A stretch of 64,000 nucleotides of DNA from the IMG/VR virus record IMGVR_UViG_3300035180_002574, positions 1 to 64,000 of that record; one strand, 5' to 3'. Source of the DNA: a virus. The translations under genes were made by a program, and so were the position numbers. The stretch's first letter is position 1. Each line of letters opens with the position of its first letter. A model generated the notes under the pieces. That model had not been told where the DNA came from. It saw nothing but the letters and a program-made list of their open reading frames with translations, and ran no database searches. Of the stretch, positions 4,385 to 25,372 are shown piece after piece.

Positions 4385-4409
4385 TTGTCGATCGATTGTC
4401 GATCGATGG
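4385..4409 (-). repeat. Tandem copy of the 14-bp start-associated motif
   Basis: Two overlapping copies of TTGTCGATCGATGG on the plus strand (CCATCGATCGACAA in the direction of transcription), just upstream of ATG 4383. A similar doubled copy is at 11891-11915. Confidence 0.9.
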
Positions 4410-4501
4410 AAGAGACGTGCGGATGCCGGCAACTCATCGTTTGCCGTCCTAGACACTGAACCATGGTGGGTTCGCATACATGAAGGAACCCAAAACCAAA
4501 T

Positions 4502-4931
4502 TTACTCAATCATGTTATTGGCTCGGAGACTGAAGTGACTGCGCATTCCATGCTCATTCACGCCAATAATCAAGTGATCGAGCAACTGAAGATCCACATG
4601 CCTTGCCGCTTGCGCAACCCTCCGGGTAAGGATAATGTCGTTGCCCGAGGGATGGTTGTGCGCGAGAATGAACCCGCGCGCACCCATTAGCAAAATTGGG
4701 CGAAGCACACCACGCAGCAGACTCCGAACCAATGGCGACAATGGTAACGCCCAGGGCTCGATTCCTGGCATCCAATCCAATGGCGAGCAAATGCTCGCGA
4801 TCGGGCGTACCAATCAGCTCATGCACCAATGCCGCTGATGCTTCGGAGTCGTGCAGGTTCGCGCTTGGAATCATAACAGAACCATCACGAACCAGTTGGA
4901 CCTTCTGAATCGGAACGCGATATCCGCTCAT
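4502..4931 (-). pseudogene. radC: RadC-like JAB/MPN-domain protein, frameshifted
   Basis: The first frame (4931 leftward) gives MSGYRVPIQKVQLV, then DREHLLAIGLDARNRALGVT and IVAIGS. The second frame gives LRPILLMGARGFILAHNHPS and LDHLIIGVNEHG. Together these are the RadC JAB/MPN core, including the HNHPSG metal-binding signature. The shift (+1 or -2) falls near 4740, and the spacing between halves is a few residues short of the family. RadC relatives are common on phages and mobile elements; their function is debated. It is either inactivated or mis-sequenced. Confidence 0.75.
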
Positions 4932-4937
4932 GTGCCC

Positions 4938-5078
4938 TCACTTGAGTTTGAGAATCGCCTCGCGCATCTTCGGATCCATGTGAGGATTCGTTTGCGCCGC
5001 TTCCTTCATGGCTTCCAATGCCTTCTTGCGATTGGCATTGATATTCTCGATGATTGCCCTGCGCTCGTCTGCGGTCAT
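4938..5078 (-). CDS. Hypothetical helical protein, 46 aa
   Basis: ATG 5078 follows AAAGAGG, which directly abuts the 14-bp motif (5088-5101). The product MTADERRAIIENINANRKKA continues with a helical, charged sequence ending MREAILKLK. It is too short for the usual ORF cut-off, but the RBS, motif and codon usage make it convincing. No family is recognised. Confidence 0.65.
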   Translation of the reverse strand: MTADERRAIIENINANRKKALEAMKEAAQTNPHMDPKMREAILKLK

Positions 5079-5321
5079 TCAACCTCTTTGTCGATCGATG
5101 GGAACCGGATATGCCACCTTGCGATTGCTCTTATAGCACGCAAGTTGCGTGTCGCTATTCCAACCCGTGCGGGTGAATAGCTCTCCGCTCACGTCCACCA
5201 CTTCGGGCAACGACTTGTAATGGTCGTAATCCCTACACTCCACTTCGATGATGTTCTCGCCTTCGATGCTGACGTAAGACAACACCGCGATGAGTTGCGT
5301 GGCTTTGGCTTGCATGTTCAT
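5079..5321 (-). CDS. Hypothetical protein, 80 aa
   Basis: ATG 5321 overlaps the stop of the 109-aa gene. The product starts MNMQAKATQLIAVLSYVSIE and reads as a small beta-rich protein (GENIIEVECRDYDHY). Its last codons (PIDRQRG) are encoded by the 14-bp motif that forms the leader of the next gene, so coding sequence and motif overlap. No domain is recognised. Confidence 0.65.
   Translation of the reverse strand: MNMQAKATQLIAVLSYVSIEGENIIEVECRDYDHYKSLPEVVDVSGELFTRTGWNSDTQLACYKSNRKVAYPVPIDRQRG
5088..5101 (-). repeat. 14-bp start-associated motif
   Basis: A perfect copy lying between the C-terminal codons of the 80-aa gene and the Shine-Dalgarno (AGAGG) of the 46-aa gene. Confidence 0.9.
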
Positions 5322-5647
5322 GCCCCCGGCTGATCGATCGATGGGCTCGATGCCATCCGATTCTTGGCGATATCCGCAAGCTGACCCACGTACTTGAGTG
5401 ACATGGTTCTAGCGCGAGCGAGATGCCGTCCGCTCAGATGCTTTCCTTCCAAGATCCATCGGGCATAATACGAACCCAAGCTCGCATCCGCGCCCGAGAA
5501 TCCTCGACCATTGGAATGTCTGGTGGTTTTCGTGGCTTGCTCATCCGCGGTTTGACACGCATAGATGGCAAGGATCGCACGCTCCACCGCATCGTCCCGT
5601 TGCATCAACAACCATTGAATGTATGCAGGATCGCTCTTGTCAATCAT
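5318..5647 (-). CDS. Hypothetical protein, 109 aa
   Basis: ATG 5647 opens MIDKSDPAYIQWLLMQRDDA, behind a GTGAGAG-type ribosome site. A helical N-terminal half (VERAILAIYACQTADE) is followed by a Gly/Ser-rich segment and a basic helix (SGRHLARARTMSLK). Its end (SPSIDQPGA) is again encoded by a motif copy (5332-5344). Possibly nucleic-acid associated because of its basic charge; no family is recognised. Confidence 0.65.
   Translation of the reverse strand: MIDKSDPAYIQWLLMQRDDAVERAILAIYACQTADEQATKTTRHSNGRGFSGADASLGSYYARWILEGKHLSGRHLARARTMSLKYVGQLADIAKNRMASSPSIDQPGA
5332..5344 (-). repeat. Variant copy of the 14-bp motif
   Basis: GATCGATCGATGG on the plus strand, upstream of the start of the 80-aa gene (ATG 5321) and inside the 3' end of the 109-aa gene. 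Confidence 0.75.
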
Positions 5648-5661
5648 GCTCTCACCCTCGC

Positions 5662-5675
5662 TTGTCGATCGATGG
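5662..5675 (-). repeat. 14-bp start-associated motif
   Basis: Perfect copy 15 bases upstream of ATG 5647; the GTGAGAG Shine-Dalgarno lies between motif and start. Confidence 0.9.
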
Positions 5676-5734
5676 GTCCGTTCGTAGCAGGGATTCGCTT
5701 TGCATTCACCAGAGGTTACTAAAGCGTTTCCCAG

Positions 5735-5812
5735 ATCGCCTAGTAGGAATCGAACCTACCTCGTCTCCATGCTCTCAGACATGGGCAGCCACCCAGGGTA
5801 TTCTCTAGACGA
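5735..5812 (-). tRNA. tRNA-like gene, isotype uncertain
   Basis: The minus strand folds an acceptor stem TCGTCTA/TAGGCGA (one G-U pair) and a T-arm GTAGG-TTCGATT-CCTAC. The anticodon stem is CCATG/CATGG, but its loop (TCTGAGAG) has eight bases instead of seven, and no regular D-stem can be drawn. CTG or TGA would be candidate anticodons. No CCA is encoded. It shares acceptor and T-loop sequence with the other two tRNA-like genes here. It may be degenerate, unusual, or affected by an indel. Confidence 0.65.
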
Positions 5813-5880
5813 AACTCCCCGTTCACAACACTCAAGGTTTGTCACGAAATCAAGCACGGGGACACACTCCGAAATCGCGG

Positions 5881-5952
5881 ATCGCCTAGCAGGACTCGAA
5901 CCTGCACCTACCTACGCCAATGCGCTCGCTCTACCAGTTGAGCTATAGGCGA
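5881..5952 (-). tRNA. tRNA-like gene, isotype uncertain
   Basis: Acceptor TCGCCTA/TAGGCGA, D-arm GCTC-AACTGGTA-GAGC and T-arm GCAGG-TTCGAGT-CCTGC are all canonical. The anticodon arm (between D-arm and T-arm) does not pair as a normal five-base stem, so the anticodon cannot be read safely; GGC or TGG are possibilities. No CCA is encoded. It lies about 70 bases upstream (in transcription) of the tRNA-like gene at 5735. Confidence 0.7.
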
Positions 5953-6128
5953 AACATCCCCTATGGGGAATCAGCTATGCTGTCTCCGTTCAACCACGGA
6001 TGGGCGCGAATCCTTATGGGCGATTCATTGCTGCCCTGGATTCGCCAGCGAATCACACCCGCCTCTACTTATACTTTGCTTTGTATAAGGAACCGTTCGG
6101 TTCGTTTTGCTTGCTTTTCAAGAGAGGC

Positions 6129-6142
6129 TTGTCGATCGATGG
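6129..6142 (-). repeat. 14-bp motif in the tRNA leader
   Basis: Perfect copy in the 260-base gap between the 136-aa gene (ending 6215) and the tRNA-like gene at 5881-5952. I see no protein gene in this gap. Confidence 0.9.
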
Positions 6143-6214
6143 GAACCGGGGAACCGACCGAAGCCGGCTCCCCAATCCCCTAACCGATCACTGAACGAAT
6201 CTCGCTTCGCTCGA

Positions 6215-6625
6215 TTACTTCTTGGCAGCCTTCTCCGCCTCGATGCGGGCACGAAGACCCACACCGCCGCCCTTGCCCTTGCCGATGAGGAACTTCGAGC
6301 TGGGACGCTCCTGCGTCCCGTCCTCCGCGATCTCGCCCTGCGCATTGTCGCGAATGTAGCTGTGGATGCGATCCGAGAGAACCTTGTGGTTCTCGGGCTG
6401 TGCATTCATCTTGACCAGCGTCATCGTGATGAGCGCCGGAACATTCATCTTGACCAGCGCCGGATATGCATCAAAGACCGCATCCACCGCATTCGCGATG
6501 GTCTGAGTCTCCACCTCACGCTCCGAGGCATACTTGACCAGCTCCGCCTCAAACCGAGAACAGGTCTCCGCGAAGTTGAGAGAACCGTCCGCATACCGAA
6601 CCAGGAAGGGAACCACATTGCTCAT
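6215..6625 (-). CDS. Hypothetical protein, 136 aa
   Basis: ATG 6625 opens MSNVVPFLVRYADGSLNFAE; the preceding leader is AGGTATAAC. It is helical (FEAELVKYASEREVETQTIA) with a flexible basic Gly/Lys-rich tail (FLIGKGKGGGVGLRARIEAE). It is the first gene of the transcription unit served by the two sigma-54-like promoters at 7220 and 7288. No family is recognised; the tail suggests contact with nucleic acid. Confidence 0.7.
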   Translation of the reverse strand: MSNVVPFLVRYADGSLNFAETCSRFEAELVKYASEREVETQTIANAVDAVFDAYPALVKMNVPALITMTLVKMNAQPENHKVLSDRIHSYIRDNAQGEIAEDGTQERPSSKFLIGKGKGGGVGLRARIEAEKAAKK

Positions 6626-7219
6626 TGTTATACCTTACTTTCCGAATGCCCTTTGGGGCTTCTATTACCACGAACCATTGGAACCTTTCGGGTTCCAAGA
6701 TACTTCCCATTCCAACCCCGGAAACCGGGAGAAGGTGAGTCGTATCTAACGTATCCAAGCTGCTTGGCACCTTCAATGATGCCCCGCCTTGTCGATCGAT
6801 GGAATGCGTCAACTGCCCGCTTTGTCTTCCCAAGATGCCAGAGAGCGTTGTCGCCCTCCCAAGTTTCAAGTCTCTTGTCGATCGATGGAGCCTTGCCGCC
6901 AACGTTGCGCCGCGTCATTCGCTCACCGTCGCATTCCCGCGCCGCATTGTAGATCGATGGAATCCATCGACTTGCATCGCGCCGCGCGCCTTCACGCTCG
7001 CTTTGCTCCCTTCGCCCGCATTGTCGATCGATGGACATTCATCGTCAACGGAATCGGGAATCGAGCGAACCGTCAACCAGCGTTCACAACGCGCACCGCT
7101 TGCGTTTCCGCTACACCGTGTCGCGTCGCTTGCTGCGATTGTGTCTCATATTGTCGATCGATGGTAACCCGGCGCCCGTTGCATGTAAGGTATCGCGCGC
7201 GCGCAAAAGGATTACCCTC
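6626..7219 (-). other. Long untranslated leader with motif array
   Basis: About 600 bases without a credible gene on either strand, between the promoter pair and ATG 6625. It contains five copies of the 14-bp motif. The apparent ORFs here repeatedly read SIDR or VDRW through the motif, which marks them as artefacts. Confidence 0.7.
6789..7164 (-). repeat. Array of five 14-bp motifs
   Basis: Copies start at 6789, 6875, 6947 (one base changed), 7021 and 7151, all in the same orientation, separated by about 60-115 bases of unrelated sequence. Spacers are not of uniform length and there is no cas gene, so it is not a CRISPR array. It is transcribed as part of the leader from the promoters at 7220 and 7288. 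Confidence 0.9.
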
Positions 7220-7239
7220 TATTAGCACGTCCCGCGCCA
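7220..7239 (-). promoter_or_regulatory. Sigma-54-like promoter
   Basis: Minus strand TGGCGCGGGACGTGCTAATA: -24 box TGGCGCG, four bases, -12 box GTGCT, then AATA. The spacing equals the RpoN consensus TGGCACG-N4-TTGCW. It points into the motif-bearing leader of gene 6215-6625. A tandem partner lies 68 bases upstream. Confidence 0.7.
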
Positions 7240-7287
7240 CGCCACATTACAATCTCACTGGAATCATAAACCTGGTATGTTGTTCGC

Positions 7288-7307
7288 TATTAGCACGTTC
7301 CGTGCCA
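7288..7307 (-). promoter_or_regulatory. Sigma-54-like promoter
   Basis: Minus strand TGGCACGGAACGTGCTAATA has the complete -24 box TGGCACG, N4 and GTGCT. It is the upstream member of the tandem pair that drives the 6215-6625 unit. Confidence 0.75.
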
Positions 7308-7406
7308 AGCACGATTAGCAAAACCCACATGCACCTACATCCGGGTAGAAAAATACAATATCCCTATAAAAACCCATAGGGGAGGGAAATGGGTAAATGC
7401 GTCCGG

Positions 7407-7442
7407 CGCAAAAATCCGCCCCGGAAAGGGGTGGATTTTGCG
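7407..7442 (-). terminator. Strong hairpin, probable terminator
   Basis: CGCAAAA-ATCCGCCCC pairs with GGGGTGGAT-TTTGCG around a GGAAA loop, about 110 bases beyond the stop of gene 7551-7976. It closes the transcription unit before the next promoter pair. A second hairpin is at 7472-7497. There is no long U-run. Confidence 0.65.
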
Positions 7443-7471
7443 TTATCCGTTGGTATGTTTGGGATTGGGTC

Positions 7472-7497
7472 CCCCACCAGCCATCATGGCTGATGGG
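7472..7497. terminator. Second hairpin downstream of gene 7551-7976
   Basis: CCCCACCAGCCA and TGGCTGATGGGG form a nearly perfect palindromic stem with a very short loop. It lies between the gene end and the hairpin at 7407, so the two could act as tandem terminators. Confidence 0.5.
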
Positions 7498-7550
7498 GAA
7501 TGAACCGCGCGTGAATCCAAGCGTCCGAAAACGATTCGGATGCCGCCACC

Positions 7551-7976
7551 CTACGTGGGAAGGGTCCAGATACCGTTGCGCTTCCTAACACCAAGCGTAC
7601 CAGCGATGGTGTCGATGCTTTTCGCCAAGCCGACCGAAGTCTTGTAACCAAAGGATTCGCGCATTGCCGTCACTTGCTCGATGACGTCGAGGCGACTCAT
7701 GGCGCCTTTGGATAGGACTTGACCCACACAGGCGCGAATGGAACCGCCATTGAATGGACGCCCACGAGGGCGACTGGATTCGGTCTCGAACAACTCCACT
7801 TCATCAGAGTTGATCTTTTCGGCAAGCTCATCCAGCTTTGCCTTCTCTTCCTCGCTCAGATTTTCCTGAATCTCCTCGATGCGCTTGTCGATCGACGGGC
7901 GCATGATCGTGTGCCCGTGTCGAAGGAGGGCGAGAACGAGGGAATCGCTGGGATTATCGAGGACGATGACTCGCAC
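7551..7976 (-). CDS. Hypothetical protein, 141 aa, GTG start
   Basis: GTG 7976 is preceded by AAGAGGTGGAGAC; the internal ATG 7904 has no Shine-Dalgarno. The middle is a charged helical segment (EEIQENLSEEEKAKLDELAE) and the C-terminal part (MSRLDVIEQVTAMRESFGYK, then VRKRNGIWTL) resembles a small winged-helix fold, inferred only from pattern. A variant 14-bp motif at 7885-7898 is inside the coding sequence, read as PSIDKR. Last protein gene of its transcription unit. Confidence 0.65.
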   Translation of the reverse strand: MRVIVLDNPSDSLVLALLRHGHTIMRPSIDKRIEEIQENLSEEEKAKLDELAEKINSDEVELFETESSRPRGRPFNGGSIRACVGQVLSKGAMSRLDVIEQVTAMRESFGYKTSVGLAKSIDTIAGTLGVRKRNGIWTLPT

Positions 7977-8037
7977 GTCTCCACCTCTTTACCTTGCTGG
8001 CAGAGTGACCAATCACGAGAACTCTCATGCGCATTAG

Positions 8038-8110
8038 TTCGTCTAATGGGAATCGAACCCATATTTCCGATTGTGATGTCGGCGTCCTTCCGCAAGGCTC
8101 TCTTAGACGA
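8038..8110 (-). tRNA. tRNA-like gene, isotype uncertain
   Basis: The acceptor stem TCGTCTA/TAGACGA and the T-arm ATGGG-TTCGATT-CCCAT are perfect. The anticodon arm is one base short: CCGA/TCGG around CATCACAA, or a five-pair stem with a C-A mismatch around a six-base loop. CAC (Val) is the most plausible anticodon. The D-arm pairs poorly. The acceptor 5' strand is tandemly duplicated just upstream. No CCA is encoded. Confidence 0.65.
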
Positions 8111-8140
8111 TAGACGAAACTCAGATATTCCGAACTTGTA

Positions 8141-8485
8141 TCAGACGGAGATCTTCTCCGTCTTTCGCCACTTTTCGAGCGCGTTCTTGGTGGCGCGCAC
8201 CGTCGCGGTCGAACCATGACCACGCCGGGTGACGAATCCCCCGCGAGCCAGCTTGGTGCAGGCGCTCGACACGTCGGATTCACTGTAGGCGTTCTTGAAC
8301 CGACCGTTCAAGTGATCGGTGAGATCCTGCGTGCTCACACCCTCGGCTCCGAATCGGAGAACGGCGAGCAGGGTCAGCTCGCATCGCTTCTTGAGCCCCA
8401 GGCTCACCTCGATGCGGTCACCCCTGCGAACCAGCTTGGAATCATGGCGATTGAACGTGACGCTCTTGCGGAAACGGATGCTCAT
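8141..8485 (-). CDS. Probable winged-helix DNA-binding protein, 114 aa
   Basis: ATG 8485 (MSIRFRKSVTFNRHD) is used because GAAGG lies before it; the longer frame to 8560 begins only 3 bases from a 14-bp motif and would translate a hairpin. The segment CELTLLAVLRFGAEGVSTQD through KLARGGFVTRRGHGSTATVR has the helix-turn-helix plus wing pattern of small transcription regulators, inferred from sequence pattern. It may regulate its own unit, but there is no direct evidence. Confidence 0.65.
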   Translation of the reverse strand: MSIRFRKSVTFNRHDSKLVRRGDRIEVSLGLKKRCELTLLAVLRFGAEGVSTQDLTDHLNGRFKNAYSESDVSSACTKLARGGFVTRRGHGSTATVRATKNALEKWRKTEKISV

Positions 8486-8503
8486 GCGGAACCTTCGCTT
8501 TCC

Positions 8504-8522
8504 GACCCCACAACATGGGGTC
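8504..8522 (-). promoter_or_regulatory. Leader hairpin before gene 8141-8485
   Basis: GACCCCA-CAACA-TGGGGTC lies between the 14-bp motif (8563-8576) and ATG 8485, with a further GGGGTC copy beside it. It could act as an attenuator or RNA-stability element. Confidence 0.45.
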
Positions 8523-8562
8523 AAGGGGTCATTCCAGAACTCTTCGATTGCTTGCCTCATGC

Positions 8563-8576
8563 TTGTCGATCGATGG
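8563..8576 (-). repeat. 14-bp start-associated motif
   Basis: Perfect copy in the leader of the winged-helix gene, upstream of the hairpin at 8504-8522. Confidence 0.9.
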
Positions 8577-8638
8577 AACCGAGGACCGGGCTCGATTGCC
8601 CGGTCCCCAATCCCAATCAGATCACGGAACGAACATGT

Positions 8639-8845
8639 TCAGGGCTTACCCGCCCATGCAAGAATGGCGGATAGCGTATCCATGCTCACCTGCACAGATT
8701 GACCATTCTGCTCGATGCGGAGAACCTTTGCGTTCTTCTGAGTCGAAAGGGGATGAGGATTGCTCATCACCACTTCGACCATCGGAGTGTCCTCGTTCCC
8801 GCCCGTGAACAAACACTGCTCGCCCAGCGGCTTGAAAACCTGCAT
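8639..8845 (-). CDS. Hypothetical protein, 68 aa
   Basis: ATG 8845 opens MQVFKPLGEQCLFTGGNEDT behind a GGAG site. It is a small beta-rich protein with a helical end (SMDTLSAILAWAGKP). The overlapping frame 8646-8918 reads through a motif copy and is judged a shadow. No domain is recognised. Confidence 0.6.
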   Translation of the reverse strand: MQVFKPLGEQCLFTGGNEDTPMVEVVMSNPHPLSTQKNAKVLRIEQNGQSVQVSMDTLSAILAWAGKP

Positions 8846-8891
8846 TGTCAGACTCCGAGTTTGAAGGTTGTAAACGTGGATAGGGGCGATG

Positions 8892-8902
8892 TTGATCGAT
8901 GG
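8892..8902 (-). repeat. Shortened copy of the 14-bp motif
   Basis: TTGATCGATGG on the plus strand, lacking three bases of the motif, 47 bases upstream of ATG 8845. Confidence 0.7.
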
Positions 8903-8933
8903 GAACCTTGACGATCACTTACTCGATTCTTGG

Positions 8934-9119
8934 TCAATCACCATCCGCATCCATGGATGCTTCGATGGCATCACGCTCGGCGGCGTGCCGATCGCCCTTG
9001 CGCTCCTTGTGCGGACCACCAGACTTGCATCTGCGGAGATCTTCGTAGGTATCGAAGCTGCGCCCCTTGATCTCTTTCACCTTGGAATTACCGCCGATCT
9101 TTTTGAACGACTTACCCAT
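8934..9119 (-). CDS. Small basic protein, 61 aa
   Basis: ATG 9119 follows GAGGAACGAGGG. The product MGKSFKKIGGNSKVKEIKGR is lysine and arginine rich, with a short acidic tail (EASMDADGD). Its composition suggests binding to nucleic acid. It is one of a run of small genes in the unit fed by the promoters at 10462 and 10620. Confidence 0.6.
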   Translation of the reverse strand: MGKSFKKIGGNSKVKEIKGRSFDTYEDLRRCKSGGPHKERKGDRHAAERDAIEASMDADGD

Positions 9120-9155
9120 GACCCTCGTTCCTCCGCTTGTCGATTCGCAACTCTT

Positions 9156-9386
9156 CTACCCATTCGTAACGATGTGCCTCGTCATTCCAGACGACAAGGA
9201 GACGGGAACCCAGGTTCCCTTGACGGGCTTGCGCAGGTTGGCGAACATGGGCGGAAGGGGCTTGAGAATCGCAAACCCTCGGCAATAGGCGTGCTGCGAG
9301 TGCGGAGCCGCATTGGACTTCTGTCCGCACTTGGAACACACGCACGGTTCCACCTTGACGCCCGCCGACTTCTTGCTCTTCGCCAT
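9156..9386 (-). CDS. Small zinc-ribbon-like protein, 76 aa
   Basis: ATG 9386 follows AAGAGG, which abuts a motif copy (9397-9410). The product MAKSKKSAGVKVEPCVCSKC then GQKSNAAPHSQHAYCRG has CVCSKCG followed by a His and a further Cys, a plausible one-zinc finger. The C-terminal half is hydrophobic to neutral (PLPPMFANLRKPVKGTW). It is not obviously related to the larger CxxC family in region B. Confidence 0.65.
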   Translation of the reverse strand: MAKSKKSAGVKVEPCVCSKCGQKSNAAPHSQHAYCRGFAILKPLPPMFANLRKPVKGTWVPVSLSSGMTRHIVTNG

Positions 9387-9396
9387 CTTGAACCTC

Positions 9397-9410
9397 TTGT
9401 CGATTGATGG
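9397..9410 (-). repeat. 14-bp start-associated motif (one change)
   Basis: TTGTCGATTGATGG on the plus strand, directly followed on the transcribed strand by AGAGG and, 6 bases later, ATG 9386. Confidence 0.9.
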
Positions 9411-9515
9411 ATCACGCTTGGCGCGATGATTACCATTATAACTGTCGAACCACACCTTTCCATACCAAAACCTTTTCGGTATGGAATATGAGTTATGAGT
9501 TTCGTTCGCGGGCGT

Positions 9516-10148
9516 TCAGCCGCGCGAAAACTTGGCGGCGTCTTGCTTGACCTTGACTCCGAACCCCAAGCCACCACTGGTGCCAACCTTGACGGTCTTG
9601 TGGACCGCCATGCGGGGAGCCCGCAGAAGTCGCTTCATGGACTCATCGCGTGAGACGATTCGCACGGGATTCAGCTTCTCGGGACAGAGAAGCCAAGTGA
9701 TGCTTCCGTGCCAATTGGGCGCGCCGTCAACGAGCTGACGGTCGACCCACCGCTCCGCATCTTGGGGCATGTCGAAGTCGGCAATCAACTCTTTCATGTC
9801 ACCAGAATCGGTGACATGAAACTGGACTCTGCCCAGCTCGTCGAGAATCTGAGCAACGTATGCTTTGGGCTCCTTCTCTTCCTTGGGGAGAAGGAATCGC
9901 TCAGCCTTAGATTGATCCTGAAGCATGATATGAGACCAGACCGCAGACTGAATCTCAGTCAAGGCAGGAGTCGGCATCAGAGCACCACTGTCCACCATGT
10001 GAACAATGGGCGACGTCAGAGGAGCCAACTCCCCGGTCGTGAGGTAAGCGCGATGCGCTTCGATGAAGCCGATTGCCGACTTCGCGGTGGACAACTTGCG
10101 CAAGAACCCCTTAGGGGTCATCTTGCGTTCTTTCTTGGCTTCCGTCAT
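9516..10148 (-). CDS. Hypothetical protein, 210 aa
   Basis: ATG 10148 follows GGTGGAG. First gene after the promoter pair at 10462 and 10620. The product starts MTEAKKERKMTPKGFLRKLS, has a helical first half, a central beta-rich part (GRVQFHVTDSGDMKEL, NWHGSITWLLCPEKLN) and a basic, glycine-containing tail (VGTSGGLGFGVKVKQDAA) similar in style to the tail of gene 6215-6625. No family is recognised. Confidence 0.7.
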   Translation of the reverse strand: MTEAKKERKMTPKGFLRKLSTAKSAIGFIEAHRAYLTTGELAPLTSPIVHMVDSGALMPTPALTEIQSAVWSHIMLQDQSKAERFLLPKEEKEPKAYVAQILDELGRVQFHVTDSGDMKELIADFDMPQDAERWVDRQLVDGAPNWHGSITWLLCPEKLNPVRIVSRDESMKRLLRAPRMAVHKTVKVGTSGGLGFGVKVKQDAAKFSRG

Positions 10149-10162
10149 AGCTTCGCTCCACC

Positions 10163-10344
10163 TTGCCGATCGATGGAATGCCGTCAAACCATTCGACGGC
10201 GCATCCCGTTTCGCTTTCCTGCTTTCGGTGCGCATTGTCGATCGATGGAACCACACCGCGTCTCACAATGTCGCACAATGAATCACGCCCCGTCGTTTCG
10301 CGTTTTCGCTCGGGGCATTCTCGCCACCGCTTGTCGATCGATGG
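10163..10344 (-). repeat. Array of three 14-bp motifs
   Basis: Copies at 10163 (TTGCCGATCGATGG), 10235 and 10331, same orientation, in the leader between the promoters and gene 9516-10148. The copy nearest the gene is 14 bases from its ATG. Confidence 0.9.
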
Positions 10345-10346
10345 AA

Positions 10347-10421
10347 GGCATCGCCGCTTGTAAGGCATCGCCGCTTGTAAGGCATCGCCGCTTGTAAGGC
10401 ATCGCCGCTTGTAAGGCATCC
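10347..10421. repeat. 17-bp tandem repeat, four copies
   Basis: GGCATCGCCGCTTGTAA occurs four times head to tail, followed by a partial unit. It lies in the untranslated leader directly upstream of the motif array. Confidence 0.95.
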
Positions 10422-10461
10422 TACATTATCCTACCTTGGTATCTATAAACTTGCGGATCTC

Positions 10462-10481
10462 TATTAGCAAACTTGGTGCCA
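10462..10481 (-). promoter_or_regulatory. Sigma-54-like promoter
   Basis: Minus strand TGGCACCAAGTTTGCTAATA: TGGCAC at -24, TTGCT at -12, consensus spacing. Downstream member of the pair serving the unit from 10148 to 7551. Confidence 0.75.
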
Positions 10482-10531
10482 ACTTCCCCTGCGCTCAATA
10501 TCCTACATTGTGTGTGAATGTAATAAAATGG

Positions 10532-10569
10532 ATGACTTGTCATCCCAAGCATGACTTGTCATCCCAAGT
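10532..10569. repeat. 19-bp tandem repeat, two copies
   Basis: ATGACTTGTCATCCCAAG plus one base, twice in succession, each containing the palindrome ATGAC-TT-GTCAT. It lies between the two promoters at 10462 and 10620, a position suitable for an activator site of the downstream promoter. Confidence 0.85.
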
Positions 10570-10619
10570 GAGATATGTCGGGGCGAGTAATCAAAGGTGG
10601 AAGGTGATCCGCGGAGCGT

Positions 10620-10639
10620 TATTAGCAAACGCCGTGCCA
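10620..10639 (-). promoter_or_regulatory. Sigma-54-like promoter, perfect consensus
   Basis: Minus strand TGGCACGGCGTTTGCTAATA matches TGGCACG-N4-TTGCT exactly. Best of the seven elements. Confidence 0.85.
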
Positions 10640-10744
10640 CCTACCTGCACACATAAAAACGCAGGGTGTCGTACCTTTCCTTACTTTTAGGGTCTTTCTT
10701 ACCTTTCCCTTCCCTTCCGCCCCGCTTGCACTTGCCCAAGACAT

Positions 10745-10789
10745 AGCCTCGGCGGCTCCTAGATCATTGCTAGCGAAACCGCCGAGGCT
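10745..10789 (-). terminator. Strong hairpin, probable terminator
   Basis: AGCCTCGGCGG and CCGCCGAGGCT form an 11-bp perfect stem about 180 bases after the end of gene 10972-11292. It separates that unit from the promoter at 10620. A smaller hairpin (TGCGGG/CCCGCA) is near 10886. The stretch 10790-10971 holds no gene that I can see. Confidence 0.65.
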
Positions 10790-10952
10790 CCCACGCCTTT
10801 CTCAGTCACATAATATATATGTTCCCCTCCGCGCCCACGTGCCAATCGGGAGCAAAAGAGAGGCGACCGCTAGGGCGTCCTTTGCGGGCATCACCCGCAC
10901 GTCAATACGGTGGATCTTGCATTATTGCCCCGCAATATCTAGGTGAGGTTAC

Positions 10953-10966
10953 TTGTCGATCGATGG
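10953..10966 (-). repeat. 14-bp motif downstream of gene 10972
   Basis: Perfect copy 5 bases after a stop codon and not followed by a gene, so the motif is not strictly tied to start codons. Confidence 0.9.
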
Positions 10967-10971
10967 GATGG

Positions 10972-11292
10972 CTAGTTGAGCTTGCTGCCCAGGAAGGGGA
11001 CGGGATCCGACGACGGATGCGCCTGCGCCGTGGAGACGAGCTTGTAGACGCGCACGGCGTCGGCGACGCACTCACCCTTGATGATCTTGATCTCGACTTC
11101 GTTCCTGGCGTTGCTGATGGCGGCGCTGTAGGCGGCGCGGATGTTCGGGGGCAACTGCGGCTCGAACTTGTCGAAGACGCTGGCGACAAGTTCGAGACGC
11201 CGCTCCTCGAACGCGTTCATGAGCGGACGCAACTCGGAGCCCGCCTGTTGGCACGCTTCGTAGATTTCCTTGAGAACCTTGGAGACGTTCAT
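10972..11292 (-). CDS. Hypothetical helical protein, 106 aa
   Basis: ATG 11292 (MNVSKVLKEIYEACQQAG) has GGAGG at proper spacing; ATG 11298 would be too close. The product is helical (FEERRLELVASVFDKFEPQL; ARNEVEIKIIKGECVADAVR) and ends VPFLGSKLN. No family is recognised. It is the last gene of the unit that starts at the promoter 12398. Confidence 0.65.
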   Translation of the reverse strand: MNVSKVLKEIYEACQQAGSELRPLMNAFEERRLELVASVFDKFEPQLPPNIRAAYSAAISNARNEVEIKIIKGECVADAVRVYKLVSTAQAHPSSDPVPFLGSKLN

Positions 11293-11312
11293 GTTCATAC
11301 CTCCGAACTTCT

Positions 11313-11326
11313 GTGTCGATCGCTGG
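11313..11326 (-). repeat. Variant 14-bp motif
   Basis: GTGTCGATCGCTGG on the plus strand, in the leader of gene 10972-11292, 21 bases before its ATG. Confidence 0.75.
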
Positions 11327-11332
11327 TAACTT

Positions 11333-11575
11333 CTAGAGGAGAACGGTCTCCTGGTTGGGGTGCGCGGGACTGGATGAATAGACCTTATCCAGACGATAGC
11401 CGTGCGCCTCGCACCACTTCTCGATAGACTGGAACGTGACCACGTAACCATGGAAGGGCTCGTCACCCTTGAACAGCAGAACCTCGTGACGCATGAGTTT
11501 GGGCGCGCCTCCCTTGGGCGCCGCCATAAACTCGGTTTCGGCGTCGAAGATGGAACGGAACGTGATTTCGACCAT
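11333..11575 (-). CDS. Hypothetical protein, 80 aa
   Basis: ATG 11575 (MVEITFRSIFDAETEFMAAP) follows AAGAGG with 8-base spacing. The product is beta-rich, then helical (FQSIEKWCEAHGYRLDKVYS), and ends ETVLL. The W-C-x-x-x-G-Y-x-L-x-x-V-Y pattern hints at a small alpha/beta fold; no family is recognised. Confidence 0.65.
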   Translation of the reverse strand: MVEITFRSIFDAETEFMAAPKGGAPKLMRHEVLLFKGDEPFHGYVVTFQSIEKWCEAHGYRLDKVYSSSPAHPNQETVLL

Positions 11576-11612
11576 TGATGACACCTCTTACAACACCCCA
11601 CTATCTCATGCG

Positions 11613-11873
11613 CTAGACGTCCTTGAGAGGCGCTTGATACTGGTCCTTGTTCCACTTGCGCAGGGACGCGTCTTCGATGGCTTCCTTCGACTCCTCGATG
11701 CCTGCGCCGGTGCGGTCGCGAAACTCCTTGATGCGCTGGATCTTGTTCTCGTAGACGGGAAACCTGCTACCCTTGGCGCAGGCATCGCGCGGCGGGGGAC
11801 CGAGCTTGTCGTCCTTGACCAGCTCGTCTGCGATAGCATCCCATTCGCTCCTGTCGATGAACATCTTGAACAT
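11613..11873 (-). CDS. Protein with EF-Ts/UBA-like helix motif, 86 aa
   Basis: ATG 11873 follows AGAGGTACTA. The C-terminal half reads IKEFRDRTGAGIEESKEAIE, closely matching the TGAG-x-x-x-x-K-x-A-L/I-E signature of the EF-Ts N-terminal UBA-like domain, which contacts EF-Tu, and the related L7/L12 C-terminal helix pair. The N-terminal half (FIDRSEWDAIADELVKDD) is unrecognised. It could target host EF-Tu or a ribosomal stalk factor; that is inference. Second gene of its unit. Confidence 0.6.
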   Translation of the reverse strand: MFKMFIDRSEWDAIADELVKDDKLGPPPRDACAKGSRFPVYENKIQRIKEFRDRTGAGIEESKEAIEDASLRKWNKDQYQAPLKDV

Positions 11874-11890
11874 TAGTACCTCTTACTGTG

Positions 11891-11915
11891 TTGTCGATCG
11901 GTTGTCGATCGATGG
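11891..11915 (-). repeat. Tandem copy of the 14-bp motif
   Basis: Two overlapping copies (the downstream one with a single change) ending about 18 bases upstream of ATG 11873. Confidence 0.9.
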
Positions 11916-11921
11916 AAGACT

Positions 11922-12131
11922 TTAGAAGACCGCCCGCTCCTCCACCTTGTAGGAGGTGATGACGACCTCGACCTTGGCGTCACCCACCACGCTGCCACCC
12001 TTGGCATGGTTCTTGGTCATGGCGAAGTGAGTGGCGGCGCCAATCGAGGCGAAGCCCTTGATGTCACGCCGAGTCAACTTGCCCGTGGCGGTATCGAACG
12101 TGAGGGCGGTAACGACGAACTTGGTGCCCAT
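11922..12131 (-). CDS. Hypothetical protein, 69 aa
   Basis: ATG 12131 (MGTKFVVTALTFDTATGKLT) follows GGAGG. It is a small beta-rich protein (VVGDAKVEVVITSYKVEERA) with a central helix (ASIGAATHFAMTKNHAKGG). First gene after the promoter at 12398. No family is recognised. Confidence 0.65.
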   Translation of the reverse strand: MGTKFVVTALTFDTATGKLTRRDIKGFASIGAATHFAMTKNHAKGGSVVGDAKVEVVITSYKVEERAVF

Positions 12132-12268
12132 GTATGTTACCTCCGACTTGAGGCTTGACTTCAATAGAAGGATGGCAGCTTTCACGCCTTAGCTGCCCTG
12201 TAGCGCCTTTGCGACCCGGACGTTTTCCGTCAGTGCGCTATCAGCATCGCTCACATTCTCGCCTTTCA

Positions 12269-12340
12269 TTGTCGATCGATGGCAGCCGTCGCTTTTTTTG
12301 TTTTCGTTCCCTGCCCTCGCCTTTCATTGTCGATCGATGG
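12269..12340 (-). repeat. Pair of 14-bp motifs
   Basis: Perfect copies at 12269 and 12327, each preceded on the plus strand by CGCCTTTCA, in the leader between promoter 12398 and ATG 12131. Confidence 0.9.
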
Positions 12341-12397
12341 TGGACCGCCGCCGCACGTTCCTTATTATACGCGGCGACGACCACACCACACGCCCTT

Positions 12398-12417
12398 TAT
12401 TAGCAACGCGCGTACCA
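12398..12417 (-). promoter_or_regulatory. Sigma-54-like promoter
   Basis: Minus strand TGGTACGCGCGTTGCTAATA: TGGTACG-N4-TTGCT. Single promoter for the genes 12131 down to 10972. Confidence 0.7.
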
Positions 12418-12526
12418 ACCACAATGTAATCAGGAATATATCGGGGGAAACGTGCCAGATAAGCGTCGGGCGCCCTAAACCACCTTCACTCACCGTGTGG
12501 ACAGATGCTTACATGTAGGATAAACG

Positions 12527-12563
12527 ACGAAAGCCCGCTCGCTTTTCAGCGGCGGGCTTTCGT
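12527..12563. terminator. Strong hairpin, probable terminator
   Basis: ACGAAAGCCCGC pairs perfectly with GCGGGCTTTCGT around a 13-base loop, 10 bases past the stop of gene 12573-13217. It closes the rightmost unit of region A before the promoter at 12398. Confidence 0.75.
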
Positions 12564-12572
12564 CCGTCAGTA

Positions 12573-13217
12573 TCAGTAGGCGTTGCTTGCGTCGTCGAGC
12601 TGGCGCGCCTGCGCCAGCAGCTTGTTCGCGAGCGTCACGTTACCCTCCTTGTCCGCCTTGCTGGCGGCGTCGAGCAGGACGCGCTGCTTCGCCTTCATGT
12701 CGGCGACCAGGCGCCGAGCGGGCGCGGGCATACCGGCAACGTAACCGGCAACCGTGGGCGAGAGACGCGGCGCCTTCCCCTCGCCCGGGTTTGGATCGAG
12801 GGTGAGACGGGCGCGGCGAGTCGCCGCCGCGAGCGCGGTCCCCAGGTCGTCGACCTTGAAGCCGCAGCACTGGAGCAGAAGAATGGTGTCGTGACGCACT
12901 TCGTGCGGATTCTTGAACGTGACGGGCTTCCGCTTCAGGTTGACAGCGGGCGCCCCGGTCACTGGATCGATGGCTTGACGAACGCCAACCATCGACGCGA
13001 GCCTGAGAAACTCCACCGCGTCGTTCGTCTCGTTCAAATCGAGCACCACGCCCACCGTCTCATGCGGAATGACCTTGGCGCTCGCCGCGCCGGCAACGCG
13101 CTCCACCTTGGGAGCCTTGACCGCCTTGACCGTTCGCGACGTATCGTCCAGCTTCGGGTCTTCGACCAAGCTGGAAACGGTGCCAGTCGCATCGGAGAGG
13201 AGAGAGGAAAAGTCCAT
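12573..13217 (-). CDS. Hypothetical protein, 214 aa
   Basis: ATG 13217 follows AAGAGG. The product (MDFSSLLSDATGTVSSLVED) has a low-complexity Ala/Val/Lys stretch, a central alpha/beta segment (HETVGVVLDLNETNDAVEFL) and an alanine-rich basic C-terminal helix region (RRLVADMKAKQRVLLDAASK). It is the only gene in its transcription unit, between two promoters and a strong terminator, which suggests a well-expressed product such as a virion or DNA-associated protein. That is inference. Confidence 0.65.
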   Translation of the reverse strand: MDFSSLLSDATGTVSSLVEDPKLDDTSRTVKAVKAPKVERVAGAASAKVIPHETVGVVLDLNETNDAVEFLRLASMVGVRQAIDPVTGAPAVNLKRKPVTFKNPHEVRHDTILLLQCCGFKVDDLGTALAAATRRARLTLDPNPGEGKAPRLSPTVAGYVAGMPAPARRLVADMKAKQRVLLDAASKADKEGNVTLANKLLAQARQLDDASNAY

Positions 13218-13339
13218 TGAAAACCTCTTAGGGTTTGGGTTCGGGCGGAGCTTGCGCCCCGCGATGAATTCCCTTGCCTTTCGCGCCGTCCGCCAGTAGT
13301 AGGGGCGAGAACTTTGTCTCGCTGCACCTTGGAATCACC

Positions 13340-13429
13340 TTGCCGATCGATGGTACCTGGTTTCCCCCTCCCACTTCGGTTCGTTCCCTTTTTCGTTCCC
13401 TGTCTCAGCCTTCCATTGCCGATCGATGG
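13340..13429 (-). repeat. Pair of 14-bp motifs (TTGCC variants)
   Basis: TTGCCGATCGATGG at 13340 and 13416, both with the same C-for-T change, in the leader of gene 12573-13217. These are the rightmost copies; none is seen in regions B to E. Confidence 0.9.
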
Positions 13430-13462
13430 GAGACCGGATTCCAGTCGGGACGGAACCGGCGC

Positions 13463-13482
13463 TATTAGCACACCTTATGCCA
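13463..13482 (-). promoter_or_regulatory. Sigma-54-like promoter
   Basis: Minus strand TGGCATAAGGTGTGCTAATA, with TGGCAT at -24 and GTGCT at -12. Downstream member of a tandem pair, 66 bases apart. Confidence 0.65.
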
Positions 13483-13528
13483 GCGGTAGGGTGATGTAGG
13501 ATAGGCTCCACGACACTCGCTCGACCGC

Positions 13529-13548
13529 TATTAGCAACTACCATGCCA
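13529..13548 (-). promoter_or_regulatory. Sigma-54-like promoter
   Basis: Minus strand TGGCATGGTAGTTGCTAATA, with TGGCATG-N4-TTGCT. Immediately upstream lies the palindrome CCTACAATGTAGG (13548-13560), a possible activator site; related TACATTGT or TACATGTA words occur near several of the other promoters. Confidence 0.7.
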
Positions 13549-13560
13549 CCTACATTGTAG

Positions 13561-15170
13561 GCTAAAAAGACCGAAACCACAGATGCCAAACATTCCAATC
13601 GGAAAATAAAAATCTTATACTACATGTAAGATAAAAAATTACTTTATACTTCATGTAGTGTGATGTAATAATAAAAAGTATTTATACGACATCGTAGGAG
13701 CTATAAGAGAAGGTGGTAGAGGTAACCAATAAGCGCCCAATGGGCGAAAAGGTAGGCGATGTGGGTGGAGGTGGTAGATGTGTGCCTGGCAAACAGGAGC
13801 ATCTGTGGCTTATATTGATTAAAAGTTACTAAAAAACCATAAAACCACCACCCACCTACCTCTGCACACCATTTCAAATCGCCCCTTATACCTCTAGAAA
13901 GTTAGTCAATAGAACCCAATTAGAGTCCCTATAATGATTCAAATGGGACTTATTACCACTTCTCCCCACCAAATGACACCTTTATAATTATGTTTTTTAA
14001 CCAAACATCTTGTGTAATTAGAAATAATTTGCTTTTTAGGTAAAAATATTAAAAATATTAATCGTTTTATTTTCCGAATTAGTTTAGAGAATATGATATT
14101 GAGGCGTCCACATTTTTGAGATGATTGAAAGGCATAAGTTAGTGAGGCTTATCTGGTTTAGTGAAGCTTATCTGGTTCTTAGGTTGAAGAGAAGTTAAAC
14201 GGAATATTAATTTGTACGGTATTTTGGAAATGCATAACATATTTTATTTTACAATATTTACAATTGATCCAGATGCCATAGACATTATCGGTGATATTTT
14301 GTAGTTAGGGAGCCAGATTATAATTGTTCAGGTTTCATGAGAATATGAGATAAGTTTTCATTTTATGTTTAAGTTCTGGGGGTGTCATATTAAGAAATTT
14401 ATTAGCGTGATCATTATCTTTACCGAAGAAGGAGATTTTGTATAACCGAGATCTTCAGCCAGAGAGATGTTGGATATGGTGATAATATATTCCACGAATC
14501 ATTTGGGTCATCAATTTTGTGGGGGAGAGGGGTTACAATTGTAGCAATTGATAATCATGGGGCGGGTGGCGTCATGCAAGGATTTTGGCAATAAAGATTT
14601 TTGCAATACGGGAAGCCAGCAAGGAACTTTCTTTAGGTAAGTTATAAATTTTATTAATATGAATTTTATTAAGGGGATATGATCGAGGGCTATATTATGG
14701 AGGTTGTAGAAAAGCGATGGAGAGGCAGGAGCCATCTTGTTCTCCGATGGAGATGGCTAACCATTGATTTGTGTTTTCAATTGATTTGTGTTTTCATGGG
14801 ATATTGGACCTGACAATATAGACGGCTTCGAGATCTTCATTGCGGGGCATTTGGAATATCATTTAGGCAGAACCAGCGAGGAATAGATTTGGGAATCGAG
14901 GAAGATCATATGAATGGGAGGAGTGGACAGGAGATTGAAGGAGATTGAAGGAGATTGAGGCGGGAGATATCGAGGGATTGTTTTTGAAAATTAAGACGAA
15001 TTTCGATAACATTTGATTTGGTTGTCATTTATTGGGGAGATGAGGTGGGGGTTTCCACATTTTTGGCAATGGAGCATTTGATTTTATTGCAAAGCCGGCA
15101 TTGAATATTCATGAGGGCGCGAGATAAGTTTTGATTTTTGTGGATTTTATCCGGGGACCAAGTTCGGGCG
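13561..15170 (-). other. AT-rich gene-poor stretch with relics of the CxxC family
   Basis: No intact gene is seen. Short minus-strand fragments retain family hallmarks, for example CRLCNKIKCS after an ATG near 15105, RWFCLNDIP near 14880 and a broken CW-x-x-YCKN block near 14600. Starts and stops are scattered in all frames. It looks like the decayed far end of the paralogue array. Repeats ACATGTAAGATAAA-like near 13620 echo the promoter-flanking words of region A. Confidence 0.5.
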
Positions 15171-22431: not shown

Positions 22432-23532
22432 TTATGCAAGTTTATCGGTTCCAGTTTTCAAATATGAAAGAAGAAAAGATTGTATGTTTCCGTCTAATAC
22501 CGAATCAGAATCTCGTGATTCCCAATCCGTCCTATGATCTTTAACCAGCTTATACGGCATCAATGTATATGTTCTAATATGATTTCCAAAAGAAATATCA
22601 GACATACTATCTATATATTTGTCTTTTTCTGTCTGTCTTTTTTTCATCTCTAATTCATAGAGTTTAGATTTTAGCATTTTAATAGCCATTTTTCTATTAA
22701 CATGCTGGTCTCTTTCGGATCTAGAATTAATTACAATTCCTGTGGGAATATGTTTCAACCTAACTGCGGACTCAACCTTATTAACATTTTGCCCGCCGGC
22801 GCCAGAAGCACGCATGGTTGAGATTTCTAAATCTTTTTCATTAATTTGAATATCGATGGTATCTTCAATATCTGGGGTTACTGCCACAGCGGCGAATGAG
22901 GTATGTCTGGCATCACCGGCATTAAATGGAGAATTTCTAATTAGACGATGAACTCCTGCTTCGCCTTTTAAGAAACCATAAGCATATGGTCCCTCAATTC
23001 TAATTGATACGGAATCCGTACAAATAGCACTATGTTCTTCTGAAGGCTTGGTGTCTAATATCTCTATCTTAAAGTCATTTGAGCCTGCCCAACGACAATA
23101 CATACGCAGCAATATAGTTACCCAATTAGCAGCTTCTAATCCACCAGCCCCAGCATTAATTGATAAAATAGCTGGATTATCATCGTTCGGTCCAGACATC
23201 ATCTGTCTGAATTCAAAGTCGGATAGATCTTTATGAGCCTTTTCTACCAGGTGAGAGATGGCTGCAATCTCATCTGGAACTACTTCTAACCCTTCTTTAT
23301 AGAAAGATACTTCATCATCAAACGTTTGCAATTTATGCAAAAGAGTGGCTAATTTTTGTCGCTCCTTCATTAAGGCAGAAGCCTTTTGAGGATCCGACCA
23401 CGCATCAGGTTTACTGACAAGGTGATCTATTTCCTCTACTCGTAATTGATATGTTTTAACTGGAATCATCTTTTTGAGAGAAACTAATTTCTCTACACAG
23501 GATTCAATCAGTTGATGCAAATTTGTAGACAT
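22432..23532 (-). CDS. prfB: Peptide chain release factor 2
   Basis: ATG 23532 ([20 protein letters not shown]) follows GAGGAAAA and gives 366 residues, the length of bacterial RF2. It contains the stop-codon-reading tripeptide SPF ([19 protein letters not shown]), typical of RF2 (UGA/UAA), and the catalytic GGQ ([19 protein letters not shown]) that triggers peptidyl-tRNA hydrolysis in the ribosome. There is no internal UGA frameshift site as in many bacterial prfB genes. It sits inside the CxxC array in the same orientation. A phage copy may favour phage translation termination. Confidence 0.95.
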
Positions 23533-23607
23533 GATGCACTTTTCCTCCTCGCACAACATAACAATTGCTAAAAATTTGTCAAGGCGCCGGCAAGGATATA
23601 AATTATT

Positions 23608-24192: not shown

Positions 24193-24728
24193 GAAAATAT
24201 TACCAATTTTCTTATCCTGGCTAACGTCTCATCAGGATTATTTAGATTTATATCTATCATGGGAAACTTAGTTGTCCTAGTTTTACCAGCGCTATCATAC
24301 GTAATGAACCAAGTTTCCTCTAGCTCATAGTAAGTTCTTACTTCTGATATTAGGTTATTTTCTTCGAACGTAACTGACATAAAATTAAGATCTACTCTGG
24401 TTATCTCTGGTTTTGTAGTATCAAATTGAACACTATAAACTGTAGAAAATTTAGAACACTCTTGACAGTCTACAAGCAATGTAGACCAAAAAATTCCATT
24501 AAAATTCAAAAATTTCTTTTGTGTTTTTTGGTTATCTTCTTTTATAAGAAGAACATTTCCAGTATCTATATGAACCACATACGCATCATTTGTTTTGTTA
24601 GATAGTGGAAATTTTATTCTACTTATATCTTCATGTTGATTTTTAGAATCTAAAAATAAACGCTCGTTACACACTGGACAATGTATGATAAAATTTAAAG
24701 CATGCTTCAAACTAGTAAAAGTTATCAT
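24189..24728 (-). CDS. CxxC-family paralogue, long form, 179 aa
   Basis: MITFTSLKHALNFIIHCPVC has the extended N-terminus and knuckle CPVCNERL. CQECSKFSTVYSVQFD is the second knuckle near residue 93. The end is ETLARIRKLVIFS. Start overlaps the stop of the kinase-like gene. Function unknown. Confidence 0.75.
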   Translation of the reverse strand: MITFTSLKHALNFIIHCPVCNERLFLDSKNQHEDISRIKFPLSNKTNDAYVVHIDTGNVLLIKEDNQKTQKKFLNFNGIFWSTLLVDCQECSKFSTVYSVQFDTTKPEITRVDLNFMSVTFEENNLISEVRTYYELEETWFITYDSAGKTRTTKFPMIDINLNNPDETLARIRKLVIFS

Positions 24729-25372
24729 GATTCGTAAAAATCTTCAAATACTTTCTTAGTTAATCCAGTGTCTATTAAAACAGGAACTCCATCTTTAAGC
24801 CCCCAAGATGATTCTTTTGCCAAATCTCCTGGCATTAACTTAAATTCATCACCTAACTCTTTGATTTCTTTATAAAAATCATTTTTACTTACCTCATCAA
24901 ATGATTCCGGCTTATCTTTATCTGTATTACCGCTAACATTTTTTAAACCGTATCTAATACATTCTCCGAAATCATCAAAATCTATACCCGTGGCTTTTTC
25001 AAATTGTTTAGCAGTTATTTTCTTTAGGAAATGAGTTTCAATCCAGGTAAAGTTGTCGGCATGTTTTATGATCTTATTAACATATTTTGACTTTAATTTA
25101 GGGTTTGCTTCTGCTTTATTTTGAGCAATGCCCTTATCATTTTTAGCCAATTTAACTACTGTTTTGTCGGGTGTCAAGTATACAATTCTTGAAGATCCAG
25201 AGGATAAATGCTTAAAATTGCGTTCCGCGTATTTTTTACGCGCATGATACGTTTCTAGTTTTTTGAGATTATCTAATACTGTCTTAACATCTTTAGAATC
25301 CTTGGGCAGCTCTTCAGCTTTTGCCAAGGATAAAAATATGCCAGCAAATCTCAATAGTTTATTAGTATTCAT
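24725..25372 (-). CDS. Kinase-like phage protein, 215 aa
   Basis: MNTNKLLRFAGIFLSLAKAE opens the protein. The block SSGSSRIVYLTPDKTVVKLA then KNDKGIAQNKAEANP resembles the glycine loop and ATP-binding lysine strand of protein-kinase-like folds seen in many phage proteins of unknown role. The catalytic HRD/DFG motifs are not obvious: LMPGDLAKESSWGLKDGVPV and LIDTGL may be the corresponding D-containing end. Activity is uncertain. It is followed by a coupled CxxC-family gene. Confidence 0.55.
   Translation of the reverse strand: MNTNKLLRFAGIFLSLAKAEELPKDSKDVKTVLDNLKKLETYHARKKYAERNFKHLSSGSSRIVYLTPDKTVVKLAKNDKGIAQNKAEANPKLKSKYVNKIIKHADNFTWIETHFLKKITAKQFEKATGIDFDDFGECIRYGLKNVSGNTDKDKPESFDEVSKNDFYKEIKELGDEFKLMPGDLAKESSWGLKDGVPVLIDTGLTKKVFEDFYES

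Follow-up and report, generated by a model that had tools for sequence, protein, structure and literature searches.

An oriented repeat motif points to an early-gene control signal in very large phages

Positions 4385-13429 of a 64,000-nucleotide stretch of viral DNA (the window; positions 1 to 64,000 of IMG/VR record IMGVR_UViG_3300035180_002574) raise the question of why one short sequence should be repeated again and again at leaders and gene starts, always facing the same way. The sequence in question is a 14-bp motif, CCATCGATCGACAA. The oriented motif, considered together with its counterparts in related phages, points to what appears, from sequence, to be an undescribed early-gene control signal in very large phages. 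The window comes from a huge phage; its motif labels the DNA next to a step in base composition, where a long one-directional series of genes starts.

Counting close variants, the motif is present in 26 copies within 4385-13429, all of them on the minus strand: 15 are exact, 7 differ at one position and 4 at two. This agrees with a first-pass annotation of the sequence, which had reported about 25 copies in 9 kb in a single orientation relative to transcription. When up to three mismatches were allowed, a scan of the 64-kb window returned 29 matches against 5.3 +/- 2.3 in dinucleotide shuffles, and none of 100 shuffles reached 29. The single plus-strand match, at 7025, arises from the palindrome, where it overlaps the copy at 7021, and the 2 matches beyond 14 kb have three mismatches each, which is the chance level. 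The claim that the motif occurs nowhere in the following 50 kb thus stands, but the limit coincides with the change in guanine-plus-cytosine (GC) content described below. In the whole 181,177-bp record, all 22 copies that are exact or have one mismatch are reverse-oriented and lie inside this one stretch; the pattern named in advance as speaking against the motif, with copies facing both ways or spread through genes, does not occur in the window. The steadiest parts of the motif are CCATC and ATCGACAA. A palindrome within it, TCGATCGA, is present as annotated but is not conserved as such; it was rejected as the functional core because variants disrupt it without compensation. No exact motif arrays came to light in other DNA: paired-motif scans covering contigs from viruses and genomes gave one chance match and otherwise none.

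The motif stretch matches the extent of a GC-rich block (49-56% GC, or about 55%), which ends abruptly as GC falls to 32-40% (about 33%):

13600-14000, no strand: GC step separating the GC-rich early region from the AT-rich late side.

Such a step could mean a chimeric contig, and this suspicion was addressed with relatives recruited via two proteins encoded on the AT-rich side, a release-factor-like protein (22435-23559) and a kinase-like protein (24728-25372); a search for relatives using two early proteins found none. The relatives' contigs include ones of 432,844, 451,956, 446,541, 480,838, 394,192 and 353,765 bp. They show a sharp GC rise at the syntenic position, with matching gene order leading there shown in two, and the step lies at about 247.4 kb in G002, about 411 kb in G004, about 318 kb in G010 (reverse orientation) and about 417 kb in G009. 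Past the step, GC declines slowly across some 100 kb in several relatives, in the direction of early transcription. Since the relatives share the step, and their early regions hold homologues of genes in the block, a chimera is ruled out and the GC-rich block is native to the phage. The early genes concerned are:

12573-13217, minus: first early gene, 214 amino acids, weakly similar to the relatives' first early genes (common GYVxGMP stretch).
9516-10145 (9516-10256 in its longer extent), minus: early gene whose homologues, at 26-43% identity, lie in the early regions of seven relatives.
6215-6625, minus: early gene matched by homologues in six relatives, again in their early regions.
5079-5321: gene likewise represented by homologues in early regions of the relatives.

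The window 14-mer itself was not found in the relatives. Counting strand-biased words there detected counterparts, mostly built on a CCCAT core, and the type of motif tracks the phage protein tree: CCCATC in G002, G003/G004 and G010; CTCCCATTCAC in G008 and G009; TTCCCATTTA in G013; and CCCATCATGAAACA in G011. Motif density peaks beside the GC step and drops with distance, and CCCATC exceeds 200 copies in the densest region of three genomes. The long versions are confined mostly to the gaps between genes, while the short CCCATC version is also found within genes, always with its orientation kept. Core sequence, place, spacing and distance to the ATG suggest that the window 14-mer and the hexamer may share one mechanism. 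The relatives add features that the window could not reveal: the motif is family-wide, stands a fixed 23-24 nt before ATG codons and comes shortly after sigma54-like promoters.

Selection on the motif shows in hexamer counts from three diverged CCCATC genomes, with synonymous-codon shuffles as the control. In the plus-strand genes of the middle region, CCCATC occurs 155 times against 43 expected, and its reverse, GATGGG, 0 times against 65 expected. In the plus-strand genes of the late core the counts are 1 against 24 for CCCATC and 3 against 59 for GATGGG, and the 3 remaining GATGGG sites are the three Trp-Met-Gly tripeptides, for which there are no alternative codons. Neighbouring hexamers show no comparable bias. 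The polarity tracks the genome strand: minus-strand genes, several of them confirmed by Pfam (trypsin-like, HNH, GIY-YIG, LAGLIDADG, glucosaminidase and exonuclease), have sense GATGGG at a near-neutral rate (13 against 9) and lack sense CCCATC. A late block of 156-177 kb is free of CCCATC, far longer than the gaps of control hexamers with a similar count. It starts between -6.4 and +1.9 kb relative to the bS21 gene in the three genomes. This gene points the same way as the majority of genes and is present in each of the six near-complete relatives searched, as open reading frames (ORFs) of 112-123 amino acids that exceed the 55-position model, at the following positions:

G002:76688, G004:227514, G010:300996, G009:192482, G011:289462, G013:321677: bS21.

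In the portions of PMC9723584 and PMC7162821 considered here, huge phages likewise encode their own bS21; those portions do not describe an oriented motif, and here the motif-free block starts near bS21.

A polarity set by genome strand, carried by an exact hexamer without flanks and densest at the GC step, from which it falls with distance, is what one might expect of an oriented DNA signal independent of expression, such as a type III-like restriction polarity, a Chi-like site, a packaging or entry polarity, or strand-specific nicking. We consider such a signal improbable. The T7-like strand bias of type III polarity would place all sites in one orientation, and 12 reverse GATGGG sites are left within the dense CCCATC region of the three genomes. 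Restriction polarity is made unlikely by where the reverse sites survive, chiefly amid the highest density of forward sites, the very region in which head-to-head pairs would be most dangerous. N6/N4 methyltransferase genes were found in G010, G013 and G011 and not in G002 or G004, and so do not follow the CCCATC clade; nor are they common to every phage of a motif type. A signal of this kind would also leave unexplained the fixed distance to the ATG, the place behind promoters and the preference of the long versions for gene gaps.

These positional features can be followed copy by copy in the window:

13340-13429, minus: leader array of two copies (13416-13429 and 13340-13353, CCATCGATCGGCAA), 53 nt past the sigma54-like site at 13481.
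12269-12340, minus: leader array of two exact copies (12327-12340 and 12269-12282), with TGAAAGGCGAG after each.
11891-11915, minus: doubled copy with 11-bp period, ahead of the Shine-Dalgarno sequence (SD) of gene 11613-11873.
11313-11326, minus: copy at exactly 23 nt (from the end of CCAGC) before the ATG of gene 10972-11298.
10953-10966, minus: exact copy immediately past the stop codon of gene 10972-11298.
10163-10344, minus: three-copy leader array (10331-10344, 10235-10248 and 10163-10176), the last copy 23 nt before an ATG (10148-10146).
9397-9410, minus: copy ahead of the SD of the gene that ends at 9156.
9137-9150, minus: degenerate half copy (..ATCGACAA), read in the sequence, ahead of the SD of gene 8934-9119.
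8889-8902, minus: two-mismatch copy upstream of gene 8639-8845.
8563-8576, minus: exact copy, 2 nt before the ATG of gene 8141-8560.
7885-7898, minus: one-mismatch copy within ORF 7551-7976, the sole window copy in a gene body.
6789-7164, minus: five-copy leader array (7151-7164, 7021-7034, 6947-6960, 6875-6888 and 6789-6802), spacing 72-130 nt.
6129-6142, minus: exact copy past gene 6215-6625, ahead of a tRNA-like stretch.
5662-5675, minus: exact copy, exactly 23 nt before the ATG of a 109-amino-acid ORF (5318-5647).
5331-5344, minus: two-mismatch copy ahead of gene 5079-5321.
5088-5101, minus: exact copy ahead of the SD of gene 4938-5078.
4385-4409, minus: doubled copy with 11-bp period, immediately before an ATG (4383-4381).

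The gene starts singled out by the first-pass annotation (the 4938, 9156, 11613 and 4246 genes) are right, as are the two doublings (4385/4396 and 11891/11902), whose period is identical. Its tie of the motif to leaders and gene starts survives as that of an oriented control element, with the copy at 7885-7898 inside an ORF. A 17-nt tandem repeat (GATGCCTTACAAGCGGC) lies at 10345-10420, immediately ahead of a motif array, and tRNA-like genes lie between motif-bearing genes at 5752-5952 and 8037-8130; the anticodon of the one at 5879-5952 could not be determined, and the others were missed by ARAGORN. A search of window positions 1-14.6 kb for known RNA families found nothing but one tRNA.

A sharp excess of ATG codons stands exactly 23 nt behind CCCATC/T for the CCCATC motif, 24 nt behind it for CTCCCATTCAC and 23-24 nt for TTCCCATTTA, and in three window genes the ATG is likewise 23 nt from the end of CCATC (or CCAGC). 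The peak is missing in the middle region. Nucleotide-exact spacing in three motif types might suggest a translation-start element, located at -29 to -24 of the mRNA and read by the initiating ribosome, for example with phage bS21, which was encoded in every near-complete relative searched; moreover, motif-bearing starts in G002 and G013 lack an SD. In four other phages, however, the motif starts have a strong SD, RNA accessibility is not raised, and many copies lie within genes or far from any start. The translational reading is therefore an unlikely one, and a purely translational or RNA-processing role, as had been proposed, does not account for a polarity set by the genome strand and not by the gene strand or mRNA.

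The other fixed point is the promoter. The window has seven sigma54-like elements with arrays of 2-5 motif copies in the leaders behind them, the single or doubled copies standing before gene starts:

13530-13547, minus: sigma54-like -24/-12 element GGCATGGTAGTTGCTAAT, pattern match only.
13464-13481, minus: sigma54-like element GGCATAAGGTGTGCTAAT, pattern match.
12399-12416, minus: sigma54-like element GGTACGCGCGTTGCTAAT, pattern match.
10621-10638, minus: sigma54-like element GGCACGGCGTTTGCTAAT, pattern match.
10463-10480, minus: sigma54-like element GGCACCAAGTTTGCTAAT, pattern match.
7289-7306, minus: sigma54-like element GGCACGGAACGTGCTAAT, pattern match.
7221-7238, minus: sigma54-like element GGCGCGGGACGTGCTAAT, pattern match.

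The arrays, of two to five copies as first annotated, run over 7164-6789 (five), 10344-10163 (three), 12340-12269 and 13429-13340 (two each). With a strict sigma54 pattern, for which a reversed control sequence yields almost no match, the first motif follows the sigma54-like element at 40-80 nt at 32 of 66 sites, about 6.7 being expected; in several phages the distance is about 40-70 nt. Copies within the window arrays are 58-130 nt apart; the spacing is mostly 80-120 nt in the two GC-richer CCCATC genomes and wider in G002 (median 177 nt), and in these genomes it is seldom below 60 nt. Intrinsic terminators show no bias relative to the motif, which is thus not part of a terminator. Near the GC step, sigma54-like promoters are concentrated within the early regions of G002, G004 and G008-G011 and at window positions 7221-13547, and many belong to a near-palindrome (TTGGCATA..TTGCAATATGCAA..TATGCCAA). 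A search of ten records for a sigma54 activator gene gave none.

Could the motif itself be an early promoter or initiator, a short recognition element with transcription starting just behind it and a minimal leader before the ATG? Very short promoters are known from jumbo phages, and the strict direction, the absence from the late block, the erasure of reverse sites and the fixed distance to the ATG would all fit. We nevertheless think it doubtful, as copies are arrayed 40-130 nt downstream of good sigma54-like promoters, the information is limited to the hexamer with no AT-rich partner, and the enrichment within genes is left unexplained. No RNA polymerase with PF04998 was found, nor one with PF00940, the latter search lacking a positive control; divergent jumbo-phage enzymes could be missed by either.

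Among known systems, stoperators and start-associated sequences come nearest, though the fit is incomplete for both. The stoperators of Cluster A mycobacteriophages (PMC6550527) are close in layout, with 20-30 asymmetric sites of 13-14 bp, oriented with transcription, located in gene gaps and having a clade-specific consensus; the single-strand placement of the window copies agrees with them. The resemblance to stoperators and to start-associated sequences (SAS), and the difference in sequence, had both been correctly noted. A stoperator-like set of repressor sites in an immunity system is nonetheless very improbable. Integrase (PF00589) was absent from seven records in a search with a positive control, the motif is limited to the early side, and the CCCATC clade is purged of reverse and late-block sites, which repressor binding would not lead one to expect. 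A 6-nt version with more than 200 copies is also unlike stoperators, and no repressor was identified; two winged-helix-like genes close to the motif have weak Pfam matches only. What is retained of the first-pass reading is the oriented control element.

The SAS of Cluster K mycobacteriophages (PMC3203893), with consensus GGGATAGGAGCCC and of unknown function, are likewise asymmetric 13-14-bp repeats, mostly in one orientation and immediately upstream of gene starts, and their partner repeats (ESAS) vary between subclusters much as the motif types vary between the phage relatives. Unlike SAS, the motif forms leader arrays behind sigma54-like promoters, keeps a fixed 23-24-nt spacing to the ATG, belongs to huge phages, and has a hexamer version with genome-wide strand exclusion whose copies also occur in genes; GGGATAGGAGCCC is unrelated to CCATCGATCGACAA and to the relatives' CCCAT-core motifs. 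The third comparison is with ops and RfaH (PMC5995543), where a short directional element in operon leaders behind promoters acts on elongation and is linked to ribosome recruitment at leaders without an SD. There is one 12-nt ops element per leader, as opposed to tens to hundreds of copies here, and these phages have no NusG-family gene.

Because the promoter, translation, stoperator and restriction readings each leave observations unexplained, we tentatively favour, at rather less than even confidence, a lineage-specific directional licence of early-region expression that would be read during early transcription. A putative sequence-specific factor, of phage or host, would read the motif, whether in the exposed DNA strand, in the nascent RNA or in both, during rightward movement of RNA polymerase. 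The factor would license the transcription complex and its ribosomes, sparing early RNA from termination or silencing. Late genes and antisense RNA would need to remain unlicensed, so the mark would be removed there. The function would be akin to ops/RfaH or to phage put/nut antitermination, but iterated along the transcript.

It is worth pointing out what weighs against such a licence. The near-complete loss of reverse sites exceeds what antisense licensing alone would lead one to expect, and copies deep within translated genes of the CCCATC clade are not clearly needed. The NusG/RfaH family (PF02357) is absent from ten phage records with the control positive, a result that covers phage-encoded factors and leaves a host factor possible. 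The motif shows no preference for unpaired RNA, with accessibility unbiased. The first motif is farther from sigma54-like sites in the window and G010 than in other phages, and G005 and G012 have no motif despite having sigma54-like sites and a GC step. The timing called early and late throughout is itself read from the layout of the genomes.

Two further observations concern the left part of the window: a RadC/JAB-like gene at 4502-4937 is apparently split across two reading frames (a frameshift or assembly error), and a long tetranucleotide run occupies 401-487 (CTGT on the minus strand).

In its broadest form, which we regard as a serious possibility just short of an even chance, the finding would describe a hitherto undescribed kind of genome-wide labelling in huge phages, in which each lineage's own short directional word tells the transcription and translation machinery which DNA is early. 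The word would crowd the region expressed first and, in the CCCATC clade, be barred from late genes and from the opposite strand; six bases could suffice, written through coding sequence by synonymous codons and changing between close relatives. Because the word differs among close relatives, a matching recognition factor should exist and be findable by co-variation. The sequences by themselves show that, in one family of phages of about 350-480 kb, a short directional word sets early genes apart from late ones, and that selection on it is very strong in coding and non-coding DNA alike. Should the word license expression, it would raise the question of how huge phages order their expression and escape host silencing, and it would offer a simple sequence test for early regions in uncultivated phages, requiring one hexamer, two strands and three zones.

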